Assembly (NCBI GenBank): GCA_903864915.1
Contig: CAIPHS010000007.1
Location: 79,146 to 143,145, forward strand
Length of the DNA: 64,000 nucleotides
Origin: an uncultured Candidatus Woesearchaeota archaeon
Lineage (GTDB): Archaea; Nanobdellota; Nanobdellia; UBA10117
Direction of reading: 5' to 3'
The notes beneath the pieces are model-generated. The model was not told where the DNA came from, ran no database searches, and saw only the letters and a program-made list of their open reading frames with translations. Position 1 is the first letter of the stretch. Each line of letters starts with the position of its first letter. Positions 3,882-21,107 of the stretch are shown piece by piece. A program made the translations under genes and the position numbers.

Positions 3882-4385
3882 TTACTTCAGTATTTTGGCT
3901 TTTACAGCCTCGAAATCTTTTGGAATATCTTTCTTGAGATGTGCAAGGATATGTTTTCCCGCAATCCTGTCTGCCTGTATCATGCTTGCATCAAACTGAA
4001 CTTTCAGACCCCCATCAATCGCGCCTTTTACTGCTGCAAAGACTTTTGCCCCTTTTGCCGCATTATGCAGGCCAATGTCTGCAATCGCTACTTGCGCCTT
4101 GCCTTTTGCCAATTTCCCAGCAAGCAATCCTACCAAATAAGCTGCCGGAGTGTTCTTGTAGCTGTGATTCCAGCCAAACCCCTTCAGCTTTGCAGAATTG
4201 ACGGTAAGCAAAGTTTTGTCGCCTGCGACATCATAACTTGTGATTTGCACAGTAACAAACTTGTTTGATTTTCTCACGATAAGGCGAGGCATTCCTGATT
4301 GCAGGAGCTTCACTCTCTTTTGATAATTCGTTTTACCTTCGCGTCTTCTTCTGAACCTAACTGCATATCTTGGTCCACTAGCCAT
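3882..4385 (-). CDS. rpl18: Ribosomal protein uL18
   Basis: GPRYAVRFRRRREGKTNYQKRVKLLQSGMPRLIVRKSNK. Confidence 0.95.
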   Translation of the reverse strand: MASGPRYAVRFRRRREGKTNYQKRVKLLQSGMPRLIVRKSNKFVTVQITSYDVAGDKTLLTVNSAKLKGFGWNHSYKNTPAAYLVGLLAGKLAKGKAQVAIADIGLHNAAKGAKVFAAVKGAIDGGLKVQFDASMIQADRIAGKHILAHLKKDIPKDFEAVKAKILK

Positions 4386-4728
4386 TTATTACATCTCCAT
4401 AAATAGCAAAATATTCAATCCGCATGCTCTCTAATGTTTTTGAAGTTATTTCTTTGTCAAAAGTTGCCTCTTTCAAAGCAGTGCTTAAAATGTGATAAGC
4501 AACTGCAGGCGCTACATCTTTAACCGCAAAATGACTTTCAACTTTAAGTGCAAACTCTATTTCGTCTTCGTTACTGTGCTGATACACATTAATTACGCTG
4601 TCCATCCATTCTTCAAGGTCTACGCTGCCGTTTTTTATACGATCTACCAAAGTCGGAGCTTTACTCAGCAACTTATCTATCTCTGCCTTGTATTCCACAT
4701 ATTCTCTATCTGCTGGTTGGACGCTCAT
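4378..4728 (-). CDS. Uncharacterised 116-aa acidic helical protein inserted between eL19 and uL18
   Basis: Complete ORF overlapping both neighbours by a few bases (translational coupling); no family recognised. Confidence 0.75.
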   Translation of the reverse strand: MSVQPADREYVEYKAEIDKLLSKAPTLVDRIKNGSVDLEEWMDSVINVYQHSNEDEIEFALKVESHFAVKDVAPAVAYHILSTALKEATFDKEITSKTLESMRIEYFAIYGDVING

Positions 4729-6305: not shown

Positions 6306-6669
6306 CCCCGCGATTGGTTTCTTTTGCGTCCAAGTGCGTCATTATGCCTTTGGAGGTTGATACTATGAGCCTGCCAAAATCCTTTGCTGGAAGATACCTC
6401 TTTTCAAACCGCTCAAATTCACCTAACGTTGCAGAAAATCTCGGCTTTACTACGCCGATATTGTTAATCAGATTGCTTAGCTTGACTTTTGCCTGTCCGC
6501 CTCGCTTGTCATCTAAAACTTCGAAAGCCTCAATATAGCCTTCCTTTTTAAGAACTTCAAAAACTTTCACAACTACTTTAGAAATAGGTCTAACTATGAC
6601 TTCCTTCTGACCTTTGTCCTTTACGTTCTTCAACGCGTTCAGCGCGTCTGCCAACACATCATGTCTCAT
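6280..6669 (-). CDS. rps8: Ribosomal protein uS8
   Basis: MRHDVLADALNALKNVKDKGQKEVIVRPISKVVVKVFEVLKKEGYI; GIMTHLDAKETNRGGVILAYVY. Confidence 0.95.
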   Translation of the reverse strand: MRHDVLADALNALKNVKDKGQKEVIVRPISKVVVKVFEVLKKEGYIEAFEVLDDKRGGQAKVKLSNLINNIGVVKPRFSATLGEFERFEKRYLPAKDFGRLIVSTSKGIMTHLDAKETNRGGVILAYVY

Positions 6670-16692: not shown

Positions 16693-16793
16693 TTACATAT
16701 TGTAAGTTACTGGTATATAAACATTGCTATAAGCAAGTTTTATGTTACAATTGGCGAATGCTTTTTAAAATACAGACTCGAGATAAGGTAGTA

Positions 16794-17237
16794 ATGTTGG
16801 ACAAAATTGACTTTGCAATTATATCTAAATTAACTAGTGATGGACGAATCTCGCTAACCGCGCTTTCTGAAGGTACAAACTTATCACGAGTTGCAATCGC
16901 CAACAGGCTTGAAAAGCTGGCAAGCCAGGGCTTTCTAAAAGTCTCTGCTCTTGTGAACCTTGGAAAGCTGAACTATCAGACATTTCTTGTTGAATTGCAG
17001 ATACAGAACAACAAAGTACCGCAGTTCAAGAAAATAATTGTAAATTTCCCGCAAGTAATACACAGCTTTGAAGTAATAGGCCCATACAATTTCATGCTTG
17101 TCTGCGCGTCGAAGAACAACCTCGAGTTGAAGGATTTTGTCGAAAACACCCTGAAGAAATTTGCAGATGACTGCAAGGTCCTAATCAGTTCGAATACCGA
17201 ATTCATGCCAGTTAAAGGTTTGAAACATGATATTTAG
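16794..17237 (+). CDS. Lrp/AsnC family transcriptional regulator
   Basis: LDKIDFAIISKLTSDGRISLTALSEGTNLSRVAIANRLEKLASQGFLK wHTH. Confidence 0.9.
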   Translation: MLDKIDFAIISKLTSDGRISLTALSEGTNLSRVAIANRLEKLASQGFLKVSALVNLGKLNYQTFLVELQIQNNKVPQFKKIIVNFPQVIHSFEVIGPYNFMLVCASKNNLELKDFVENTLKKFADDCKVLISSNTEFMPVKGLKHDI

Positions 17238-17556
17238 ACCATTCCTAACGATTGATATTATAGCACTGGTAGCATTAGCTATTTCTTTTTTCATGTCAAT
17301 CAAGCTTGTCAGGCTGATGGGCAAGGGCAAGGATGCTGAGCCTGCAAAGATTCTCATAATAGTAACTGTGATGAATGGCTTGCTTGGTTTGCTTTTGCTT
17401 ATGGGAGGCTACCAGAAATACCTGCAGGATTATTTGATGTATGTCAGGATGACGGACATAATACTCATGATAGTGGGCATAGTACTTGCAGTGAGCATCT
17501 TCAAAGTCTACATAGATTACAAGAAGCTAATCAAAAAGCACGAGCCAAACTTATAA
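17227..17556 (+). CDS. Small three-TM membrane protein
   Basis: Hydrophobic segments; start overlaps the end of the Lrp gene. Confidence 0.75.
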   Translation: MIFRPFLTIDIIALVALAISFFMSIKLVRLMGKGKDAEPAKILIIVTVMNGLLGLLLLMGGYQKYLQDYLMYVRMTDIILMIVGIVLAVSIFKVYIDYKKLIKKHEPNL

Positions 17557-17557
17557 T

Positions 17558-18253
17558 TTATTTCTCAAACTGGACTCTCTTGAAAGTTGACAACGGCTTT
17601 GCTTTTTTAAATTTGTACAAAGAGGCCGGCCTGTGCTGACCTTTCTTATAATGCTTAGTCTGTTCAAGAATGCCCAAAGATGTTATCTTTTTCCTGAAAT
17701 TTCTCTTGTCCAGTTTTTCACTTAGAATTACTTCGTAAAGTTTTTGCAAATCAGTCAAAGTAAATAATTCTGGCAACAACTCAAAACCAACTGCAGTATA
17801 TTCTAATTTGTAACTCAACCTTTTCACTGCATATTTGATAATATCTTCATGGTCAAACGCGAGTTCGGGTAAATTGTTAACAGAAAACCATTGCACATCT
17901 TCGATTTTTTCATTCCCCGTAACAAATGGTTTGGTTTTTGTTGAATCAACCAAAACAAAATATGCAACTGATATCACGCGTCCTCTAGGATCTCTTTTCT
18001 GTCCTCCGAATGTGTATAGCTGTTCCAAATAAAGATCTTTATGCGCAATGCCTGTTTCTTCTTCCAGCTCTCTTTTAGCTGCATCCTTGAGAGTCTCAGC
18101 TAGCTTGATAAACCCGCCAGGTAAGCACCAAGAGCCCTTGAAAGGTGGCAAGCCTCTTTTGATAAGGAGAACTCTCAACTCACTATTGCCCACAGTAAAG
18201 ACAACAACATCAACAGCTACGGACGGTTGTGGATATTCTTCAAGTTCGCCCAT
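17558..18253 (-). CDS. NUDIX hydrolase fused to C-terminal wHTH (NrtR-like regulator)
   Basis: NUDIX box GGFIKLAETLKDAAKRELEEETGI; C-terminal LFTLTDLQKLYEVILSEKLDKRNFRKKITSLGILEQTKHYKKGQHRPASLYKF as in NrtR; start placed at MGELEEYPQPSVAVD. Confidence 0.88.
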   Translation of the reverse strand: MGELEEYPQPSVAVDVVVFTVGNSELRVLLIKRGLPPFKGSWCLPGGFIKLAETLKDAAKRELEEETGIAHKDLYLEQLYTFGGQKRDPRGRVISVAYFVLVDSTKTKPFVTGNEKIEDVQWFSVNNLPELAFDHEDIIKYAVKRLSYKLEYTAVGFELLPELFTLTDLQKLYEVILSEKLDKRNFRKKITSLGILEQTKHYKKGQHRPASLYKFKKAKPLSTFKRVQFEK

Positions 18254-18256
18254 AGA

Positions 18257-18275
18257 TAGTGTAATATTTACAATA
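18257..18275. promoter_or_regulatory. Candidate operator TAGTGTAA-TAT-TTACAATA at the NUDIX-wHTH promoter
   Basis: 8-3-8 palindrome with one mismatch, between TTATAA (18278-18283) and ATG (18253) on minus strand. Confidence 0.65.
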
Positions 18276-18323
18276 GTTATAAGCTTTATCGCTGCTTCGT
18301 CTTCAACTTGAACAAGCAAGATG

Positions 18324-18803
18324 TTATTTTGCAGATTCAGTTTCTGTCACGCCATAACCAGTTATCATCAGAAGCCCATTACCTGCCAACTCTAATGTTT
18401 CCGCTTCCCCAAGACCAAATGATTTGCCGCTTACAACATCCCAAAGTCCAAGTACTTTACCTAAAGCCATAAGCCTGAGGCCACCTTCCTGTTCTAAACC
18501 ACAGTTAGGAGAAAGCTCTATGTAACTTGGACCGCCAGCAAGCCTGTCGGGCTGAGGATACTCTGCAAGTATGCCTTCCAAATCACTTTTCCTTTGTTCG
18601 GCTTTTTCCCTATCGACTAAAACATCGACAAACACCATATCCACTTTTTCATATTTTTCAGAATTAGGTGATTGCGAGCTGTGAGGACAATTATAAATTT
18701 CTGTGACCTTGGTGTCTCCCACATATTTTTCACTAATCGCTGCGCCTTTTCTATAAACTTCAGTTGTTTCTTTTAGTATTCCATATAATTTTTTAGAATT
18801 CAT
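18324..18803 (-). CDS. Hypothetical protein, third gene of putative NUDIX-regulated operon
   Basis: ORF start overlaps stop of the upstream gene (ATGA at 18800-18803). Confidence 0.7.
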   Translation of the reverse strand: MNSKKLYGILKETTEVYRKGAAISEKYVGDTKVTEIYNCPHSSQSPNSEKYEKVDMVFVDVLVDREKAEQRKSDLEGILAEYPQPDRLAGGPSYIELSPNCGLEQEGGLRLMALGKVLGLWDVVSGKSFGLGEAETLELAGNGLLMITGYGVTETESAK

Positions 18804-19144
18804 TTTTTCCCCTCCGTAACTATTTCGTACAGTTCTTTTTTCTCAGGCACCTTTTTGTCATTAACATACAAGCCATCCCCTTTCCATTCATGCGTGCCAC
18901 ATCCGCCAGATTCGCTTGTGGCGGCTCTCGCAGATAGGTATCTAGCAACTATGGGATTTTCTGGAGAAGGCTCTTTGATGACTGCAGCATACAAGCCACA
19001 CGGATGCTTGTAATTACTCACAACTTTTCTTAATGCAGCCATTGGGTTTATAGCTTCTATAAAACCGCTATCAGTATCTGAGCAGATTGGTGCTGCATTG
19101 CTATTCGTAACGTATTGATACAATTTATTTTTTGTTTTTTTCAT
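18800..19144 (-). CDS. Hypothetical protein, second gene of putative operon
   Basis: ORF closely spaced with 19153..19473 and 18324..18803. Confidence 0.7.
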   Translation of the reverse strand: MKKTKNKLYQYVTNSNAAPICSDTDSGFIEAINPMAALRKVVSNYKHPCGLYAAVIKEPSPENPIVARYLSARAATSESGGCGTHEWKGDGLYVNDKKVPEKKELYEIVTEGKK

Positions 19145-19152
19145 GTTTCACC

Positions 19153-19473
19153 TCAATCCGCCAAATAACACCCCAAAACACTAATTAGCGAAGATGTTTT
19201 GTGCCTGGTTGAATAAAATTTACCCAAGTGGATTTTGCTCCTCTCGCTGGCACAGTCATACAACTTAGCAACCAGTCCTAGCACCCTTTTGCGTTCTTTT
19301 CTCGAGCCACCTTTGTACGGCAAGCTAACCCTCTCACACTCATACTCTAGTGTTAGTCTTCCTCTTGCGTTGAAGTTGACTTTTTTCAGTCCGTATCCTA
19401 TCTTTTCAACTACGTCGTTATCGCTGAGTTCTTCTCGAACCCATGCCTGGTACACTTCCCTCGGATCTTCCAT
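19153..19473 (-). CDS. Hypothetical protein, first gene of putative operon
   Basis: ORF preceded by GGTGGG (SD-like) and a TATA/operator region. Confidence 0.65.
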   Translation of the reverse strand: MEDPREVYQAWVREELSDNDVVEKIGYGLKKVNFNARGRLTLEYECERVSLPYKGGSRKERKRVLGLVAKLYDCASERSKIHLGKFYSTRHKTSSLISVLGCYLAD

Positions 19474-19489
19474 CTTCCCACCATCCTAT

Positions 19490-19508
19490 TGGTGTTCTTC
19501 TTACACTA
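19490..19508. promoter_or_regulatory. Weak operator copy TGGTGTTC-TTC-TTACACTA
   Basis: Same 8-3-8 layout; right half identical to the strongest site, left half 5/8. Confidence 0.4.
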
Positions 19509-19551
19509 ACTATTACCGCACGTTTCATTCTCATTTCAGCACAGTAAACGT

Positions 19552-19570
19552 TAGTGTCTTACTTACACCA
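19552..19570. promoter_or_regulatory. Operator copy TAGTGTCT-TAC-TTACACCA
   Basis: Same 8-3-8 layout; left half 6/8, right half 7/8. Confidence 0.5.
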
Positions 19571-19572
19571 AC

Positions 19573-19595
19573 AGTAGTGTAAATGTTACACTACT
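19573..19595. promoter_or_regulatory. Perfect 10-3-10 palindrome AGTAGTGTAA-ATG-TTACACTACT abutting TATA box TATATAAA (19595-19602)
   Basis: Direct reading; immediately downstream of the TATA box for the minus-strand operon. Confidence 0.8.
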
Positions 19596-19631
19596 ATATA
19601 AACCTTTTGATTGTTAAAAACAGTCAAAAAA

Positions 19632-21107
19632 TCAGCCCTTTACGTTTCCAATTGGCTTGAAGGCAACTACTTTCTTTGAAACACCTGCTATGTCCATTGT
19701 GTCTACAACTTCATTAATTGGCTTGTAAGCCCTGCCTGCTTCCTCTGCGAGGCCTGCCATTGAAACTGAGCGCACATAGATACCTTCCTTCTCCATCTTC
19801 TTCTGCAAATCTATGCCAGAACCCTCCCTTTTTGCCTGCGCCCTTGACATAGTTCTTCCTGAGCCGTGCATGGTGCTTCCAAACGTCAAATCATCGGCCT
19901 CGTCAGTTCCTACACACAAGTACGAGCCTGTTTCCATGCTTCCTCCAACTATGACTGGCTGGCCAGTTTCCCTGTAGAGCTTTGGCAATTCCTTCCTTGC
20001 AGGCCCGAAGCATCTTGTTGCGCCTTTCCTGTGCATCACAACTTCTTTCTTCTCACCATCAATCTTGTGCTCCTCTATTTTTGCAATGTTGTGTGCAACG
20101 TCGTAAATCAGGTGCATGCCTAATTTTTCAGCATCCTGCCCAAAGATATGGGAAAAACCTTCCCTGATCCTGTGCAATATCAACTGCCTGTTGGCAAAGC
20201 CGTAATTTGCGGCGCAGTTCATGGCTGCGAAATAATCCTGTGCCTCTTTGCTTCTGAACGGGGCACAGGCCAGTTCCTCATCCCTTACTTTTATTCCCCA
20301 GCCAGCCATCTTCTCCCTGAAAACATTAACATAATCAGTGCAAATCTGGTGGCCAAAACCGCGAGAGCCGCAGTGGACCATCACGACAATCTGGTTTTCG
20401 AACAAGCCGAATTTTTTCGCGATTTGTTTGTCAAAGATATTCTTAGCAGCAATTAATTGGACTTCGAGATAATGATTTCCGCTTCCAAGAGTTCCCAATT
20501 CCGGCGCGCCTCTCGACACCGCTTTTTGTGATACTTTTGAAGGGTCCGCGCCTTCAATCCTTCCAAAGCCTTCTATCCTGTCCTTGTCCTCAGACCAGCC
20601 ATAGCCATTCCTGATACACCATTGCGCACCATCTGTCATGACTTCCTTGTGCTGTGGCAATGTCAGTTTTACAAAACCATGAGCGCCAACACCTGCAGGA
20701 ACCGTCTTGAAAAGGTAGTCTACCAAAGGTTTCAACTTTGGCTTTACATCTTCAACTGTCAGGTCTGTTCTGATAAGGCGCATTCCGCAGTTAATGTCGT
20801 AGCCGATTCCGCCAGGCGAAATAATTCCTGTTTCCGGGTCAAACGCTGCAACCCCGCCTATGGGAAAACCATAACCCCAGTGCGCATCGGGCATGCACAT
20901 CGCTGCCTTCTGTATTCCCGGCAGGCATGCAACATTCGATATTTGCTCGAAAACAGCCATATCCATCTGGTTCAGCAACTTTTCGGTTGCAAAAATCCTA
21001 GCGGGGACAAGCATCTCAGGCTTTCCTTTCTTGTAATTAGGAGAAATTTCCCAGCACACATCAGAAATCTTCTTCAGTGGCGGCCTCGTAGTTGGCATCT
21101 GAATCAT
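19632..21107 (-). CDS. rtcB: RNA-splicing ligase RtcB
   Basis: PDAHWGYGFPIGGVAAFDPETGIISPGGIGYDINCGMRL; LGSGNHYLEVQ; no intein seen. Confidence 0.96.
   Translation of the reverse strand: MIQMPTTRPPLKKISDVCWEISPNYKKGKPEMLVPARIFATEKLLNQMDMAVFEQISNVACLPGIQKAAMCMPDAHWGYGFPIGGVAAFDPETGIISPGGIGYDINCGMRLIRTDLTVEDVKPKLKPLVDYLFKTVPAGVGAHGFVKLTLPQHKEVMTDGAQWCIRNGYGWSEDKDRIEGFGRIEGADPSKVSQKAVSRGAPELGTLGSGNHYLEVQLIAAKNIFDKQIAKKFGLFENQIVVMVHCGSRGFGHQICTDYVNVFREKMAGWGIKVRDEELACAPFRSKEAQDYFAAMNCAANYGFANRQLILHRIREGFSHIFGQDAEKLGMHLIYDVAHNIAKIEEHKIDGEKKEVVMHRKGATRCFGPARKELPKLYRETGQPVIVGGSMETGSYLCVGTDEADDLTFGSTMHGSGRTMSRAQAKREGSGIDLQKKMEKEGIYVRSVSMAGLAEEAGRAYKPINEVVDTMDIAGVSKKVVAFKPIGNVKG

Follow-up and report, generated by a model that had tools for sequence, protein, structure and literature searches.

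A predicted NrtR-type regulator shares its operator with an uncharacterized three-gene cassette in a Woesearchaeota archaeon

What does a NUDIX-winged-helix regulator control when its neighbors are three genes of no recognizable family? This question is raised by a 64-kb window, the whole stretch of DNA analyzed here, from an uncultured Candidatus Woesearchaeota archaeon, in which an initial annotation proposed that such a regulator represses itself and a neighboring set of three genes through a shared palindrome. We find it probable that the protein is an archaeal NrtR repressing itself and this cassette via TRGTGT-N7-ACACYA, that it answers to a NAD-derived ligand, and that regulator and targets form one accessory block. 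The features are as follows.

17557..19631: whole block of 2.07 kb, nrtR plus cassette, between mem109 (17227-17556) and rtcB (19632-21107)
17558..18253, minus strand: nrtR, 231 aa, NUDIX sensor domain and NrtR winged-helix domain, from Pfam domain matches
18257-18275: predicted operator of nrtR, TAGTGTAATATTTACAATA, between a TATA-like TTATAA (18277-18282) and the ATG
18324..18803, minus strand: ORF159, an undescribed family of archaea, Patescibacteria and bacterial-virus contigs, with homologues 42-57% identical
18800..19144, minus strand: ORF114, overlapping ORF159 by 4 bp
19153..19473, minus strand: ORF106, orphan, first operon gene by its position and a ribosome-binding-like GGTGGG
19490-19508: operator-like site TGGTGTTCTTCTTACACTA, in the operon 5' leader
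19552-19570: operator-like site TAGTGTCTTACTTACACCA, downstream of the operon core promoter, in the 5' leader
19573-19595: predicted operon operator, a perfect 10-3-10 palindrome of 23 bp, directly downstream of the operon TATA box
19595-19602, minus strand: TATA-like box TTTATATA of the three-gene operon, from sequence

The regulator has an N-terminal NUDIX domain (PF00293, 2.5e-24) and a C-terminal NrtR winged helix (NrtR_WHD, PF21906, 3.1e-27; 95 bits against a cut-off of 27), both far over their cut-offs, so that its first description as NrtR-like is upheld. As is characteristic of the NrtR family, palindromic operators precede both its own gene and its putative target genes. The NCBIfam equivalog model for the ADPR-responsive repressor NrtR also matched (7e-58), with 195.9 bits under a cut-off of 400; by sequence the protein is thus a member of the NrtR family, with an equivalog status as ADPR-responsive repressor that falls below the model's cut-off. 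Its Nudix box GGFIKLAETLKDAAKRELEEETGI is intact and conforms to the complete signature, which 19 of 39 relatives also satisfy; among NrtR proteins already described as regulators of NAD metabolism, this signature is impaired (PMC4666351). The winged-helix stretch DKRNFRKK is common to nearly all NrtR proteins of our sample. The longest nrtR reading frame begins at 18319, but the ATG at 18253 is the more plausible start. The closest solved structures are AraR of Bacteroides (5bs6, 2.8e-46) and Shewanella SoNrtR (3gz5). AraR, an NrtR-family arabinose regulator, resembles the window system in structure match, tandem operators and its role as a repressor, but it differs in its sugar ligand and pentose targets, and no sugar genes lie beside the window nrtR. 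Because so close a relative senses arabinose, the fold by itself cannot tell which ligand is bound. Among the relatives we also observed an NrtR subclade with a degenerate Nudix box starting GRFVRY (L058, L060, L068, L069, L071); in L058 and L068 at least, genes for NAPRTase or NAMPT-like proteins are preceded by operators.

A motif scan of the window recovered all four palindromes at the coordinates first reported. Allowing up to 3 mismatches, the 64 kb hold 4 motif matches against a shuffle mean of 0.15, and no shuffle reached 4. The layout had been described as an identical 8-3-8 arrangement; TRGTGT-N7-ACACYA is indeed present at all four sites, but the 19552 and 19490 copies lack the inner TAA/TTA, and the conserved form is better given as 6-7-6. 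The promoter geometry was confirmed as well. Read along the minus strand, TTTATATA is followed in the operon promoter without a gap by the perfect palindrome, which does abut the TATA box; in the nrtR promoter the order is TTATAA, a single base, the operator, and then the ATG at 18253. A sigma-70 promoter scan was set aside, as it is not applicable to archaeal promoters.

These sites are confined to the locus. In the full assembly (650,790 bases in 13 contigs, ~83% complete), the tight pattern TRGTGTNNNNNTTACA occurs at these four places only, and its reversed control at none. Two further places score 11/12, both within ORFs, and the four sites are the only promoter-proximal operator matches in the assembly, restricted to the nrtR and cassette promoters. 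The possibility that the motif is common genome-wide was thereby put to the test and not borne out. At this completeness, the assembly may lack further NrtR targets or NAD genes. An independent matrix of 29 positions, built from 46 sites of relatives with the genome's own sites left out, ranks the four sites 1, 2, 3 and 5 across 650 kb, with scores of 14.6 to 19.8 against maxima of 12.4 to 16.3 in first-order Markov control genomes. The perfect palindrome scores lowest of the four because its AG/CT flanks are unusual for the family. The place at rank 4 (C8:9961) lies inside an ORF, and for this reason we did not accept it as a fifth operator.

Comparison across the phylum ties the operator to the regulator. 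Among 282 sampled genomes, NrtR_WHD was found in 38 and not in the other 244, and the exact TAGTGT-N7-ACACTA is present in 16/38 of the former versus 2/244 of the latter (Fisher 6e-14). A mild enrichment is seen for the reversed control too (6/38 versus 7/244, p 0.003), which points to a small contribution from genome size or composition. Many sampled genomes have looser copies at the start of nrtR, and strong copies precede genes for NAPRTase (L053, L058, L062, L065, L066, L073), NAMPT-like proteins (L052, L056, L068), QPRTase-like and isochorismatase-family proteins (L071), NadA (L042) and an ADP-ribosylglycohydrolase (L043). Exact copies away from nrtR lie before genes that look, by eye from sequence and not by profile, like those of NAPRTase (L094, L095, L108) and NadE (L098). 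The sister of the window protein, a 68% identical NrtR (G139; 100/99 support), comes from a genome with an exact operator before a NAPRTase-like gene. We conclude on these comparative grounds that NrtR of this phylum is likely to regulate NAD metabolism through this operator. Such targets are seen in the relatives; in the window genome the targets are uncharacterized genes, and no NAD genes were found. Since the motif is rare genome-wide and NrtR-bearing relatives keep the palindrome, both at nrtR and at NAD-metabolism genes, comparative genomics lends good support to three earlier proposals: that protein and operator form a pair, that the protein would control its own gene and the operon, and that its ligand would be related to NAD or ADP-ribose.

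Two observations on the relatives' promoters bear mention. NAD promoters often have two operators 52-54 bp apart (L071, L054, L055, L066), about five helical turns, which suggests cooperative binding. In one archaeal relative (G074, L043 5317-6339, site at 6476), NrtR, operator and an ADP-ribosylglycohydrolase gene occur together, resembling predicted bacterial Nudix-HTH/ARG conflict systems. The examined literature mentioning NrtR and archaea yielded no described archaeal NrtR, and one paper in it records that no HTH domain was found in Sulfolobus acidocaldarius Nudix proteins. NrtR itself is a known family; as far as that literature goes, what is new is the archaeal operator and regulon, together with the cassette.

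The surroundings of nrtR have the appearance of an insertion. The AsnC, mem109 and rtcB genes are kept in genomes of the same family (G002, G003, G006), and in G003 mem109 directly adjoins rtcB. The gap between the two genes is variable, holding mutually similar uncharacterized genes in G002 (L168 6036-6464) and G006 (L170 1559-2134). In the window it contains exactly nrtR and the cassette. In the family search, the two other genomes of the same family that were listed, G002 and G003, gave no NrtR match, and the window NrtR groups with G139, from another family, and not with G012 of its own order, a placement that fits transfer. Taken together, the filling of the gap and the grouping with G139 make regulator and targets look like one accessory unit.

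The NAD supply of the genome gives this unit its setting. Searches of the ~83%-complete assembly turned up no member of the NAD synthase, CTP_transf_like (NMNAT) or NAD kinase families, although each was detected in all 14 control genomes, and tblastn with relatives' NAPRT, NAMPT, NadA, QPRT and nicotinamidase found nothing credible there. Within the order, too, the majority of genomes have no NAD synthase. Given the 17% of the genome that the assembly lacks, the lack of NAD synthesis genes is no more than suggestive. The cell probably takes NAD or its precursors from others. Its promoter style and the small genomes point to an archaeon of DPANN type.

ORF106, ORF114 and ORF159 are tightly packed, and none has a Pfam, NCBIfam or PADLOC match or a meaningful PHROG match; phage and plasmid record searches turned up nothing for those proteins with which they were run. 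For ORF106, neither 264 genomes nor 50,697 phage records contained a credible homologue, and its PHROG match to an ADP-ribosyltransferase (E 0.32) was dismissed as noise. For ORF159, the structure prediction (pLDDT 61) gave no PDB match better than E 0.4; for ORF114, it shows a beta-beta-alpha-beta core (pLDDT 71.5), whose weak structural matches to small phage proteins we do not count as evidence. Homologues of ORF159 occur in three IMG/VR contigs, in three bacterial MAG contigs, two of them labelled Patescibacteria, and, among 377 archaeal genomes searched, in two besides that of the window (G168, G089), with a fourth archaeal match marginal (G315, 4e-4). All three clear archaeal carriers have NrtR. 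In G168 the homologue is 57% identical and has an operator, TAGTGTATTAGATACACAA (11/12), immediately ahead of its TATA box, with 0 sites this good in 110 kb of background loci; in the same genome, an NrtR operator also precedes a NadE-like gene. No operator was found near the G089 homologue, which is divergent to an adjoining macrodomain-like gene (Pfam Macro 9e-4, just under the cut-off; PDB macrodomains down to 2.7e-5). There, the macrodomain-like gene, the ORF159 homologue and a 214-aa uncharacterized gene starting one base after it (L180 2823-4625) make a possible ADP-ribose cluster; a by-eye likeness of the gene at 3981-4625 to ADP-ribosyltransferases was dropped, as it has no Pfam or credible PDB match. 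The bacterial ORF159 genes stand alone, and no NrtR link was seen. ORF114 has homologues, 66-68% identical, in G130 and G136, near which operators were sought and were absent. A DUF7736 gene adjoins the ORF114 homologue of archaeal G130 (L088 5972-6848) and another adjoins the ORF159 homologue of viral contig L037 (4545-5489), hinting at one accessory gene pool.

This distribution raises the question of whether the cassette has anything to do with NAD. NrtR and its operators could be real while the cassette is a set of phage-type accessory genes that captured the resident NrtR as a switch, with ORF106, ORF114 and ORF159 perhaps serving defense, counter-defense or superinfection functions. We give this reading a substantial chance, somewhat short of even. 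The ORF159 homologues in viral contigs and the DUF7736 neighbors, a family whose members also match PHROG families, speak for it, as do the variable gene content at the mem109-rtcB locus in relatives, the block-like insertion, and a published account in which Nudix-HTH regulators switch predicted ADP-ribose conflict systems (PMC9503650). Weighing on the other side, the G168 ORF159 lies under an NrtR operator in a genome with a second such operator before a NadE-like gene, and a macrodomain-like gene adjoins the ORF159 of G089.

Two further explanations would detach the operators from present-day control of the cassette by NrtR. NrtR could be a remnant that merely autoregulates, its NAD targets gone with the lineage's NAD synthesis and the cassette operators relics. 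The failed searches for NAD genes agree with such a history, yet the four sites are well conserved and include a perfect 23-bp palindrome, the NUDIX box and ORFs are intact, and the lack of an NrtR match in G002 and G003 favors recent acquisition and active use; we hold it unlikely. Less probable still, and in our judgment very improbable, is that another protein binds the palindromes, such as the neighboring Lrp/AsnC-type regulator (16758-17237), which carries an HTH and lies 300 bp from nrtR. G002, G003 and G006 all lack the block yet keep the AsnC gene, G002 and G003 have neither an NrtR match nor an exact operator, and across the phylum the operator tracks NrtR.

Control by NrtR itself would work as follows. 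An NrtR dimer would bind the TRGTGT-N7-ACACYA palindromes directly after the TATA boxes of nrtR and of ORF106-ORF114-ORF159, where it would cover the transcription start region at both promoters and so block transcription start. An operator over the transcription start region is the usual position for an archaeal repressor. A NAD-derived ligand held by the NUDIX domain would then release NrtR from DNA, and regulator and operon would have entered the mem109-rtcB locus together. ADP-ribose is the most likely releasing ligand, if bacterial NrtR (PMC6800001) is a guide. The protein family, operators, operator uniqueness, block structure and relatives' NAD regulon, as well as the second ORF159 operator, were established by computation; binding, repression and the ligand we infer, together with the ADP-ribose theme of the cassette, for which the sensor, the G168 operator and the macrodomain-like neighbor in G089 speak. 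The probable signal that switches the cassette is NAD or ADP-ribose. As the block sits in a genome whose assembly contains no NAD synthesis genes, the function of the cassette appears tied to external NAD or ADP-ribosylated molecules, which it most likely responds to, uses or protects.

Known systems provide partial parallels. Bacterial NrtR proteins, repressors of NAD metabolism, share the domain order, the NrtR_WHD match and autoregulation, and their targets are NAD salvage and synthesis genes, as in the archaeal relatives; the Mycobacterium operator GTTTTCGA-N7-TCGAAAAC (PMC6800001) has the same 7-nt center as the archaeal palindromes. The closest functional precedent is the Nudix/WYL-HTH ADP-ribosylglycohydrolase conflict systems (PMC9503650), in which a one-component Nudix-HTH regulator likewise stands beside a variable small operon. 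In contrast to these, the window cassette has no detected ADP-ribosylglycohydrolase, phosphatase or restriction endonuclease domain, ORF106, ORF114 and ORF159 being without any Pfam match, and we do not class it there, as the defining glycohydrolase is absent. It is tempting to see in ORF159, with ORF114 as an occasional partner, a new small family acting on NAD, ADP-ribose or ADP-ribosylated molecules, moving between archaea, Patescibacteria and bacterial viruses and NrtR-switched in archaea, a tentative proposal that we consider less likely than not; so read, the cassette possibly serves a response to NAD depletion or ADP-ribosylation, in defense or counter-defense.

Our findings give NrtR a defined operator and a predicted regulon in an archaeal phylum for which the examined literature describes no case, and they make NAD control in these reduced archaea directly testable. 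They also tie the undescribed ORF159 family, present in bacterial-virus contigs as well, to a putative NAD/ADP-ribose sensor. That two archaeal genomes of different families place ORF159 under the same operator offers a lead to the function of this family.
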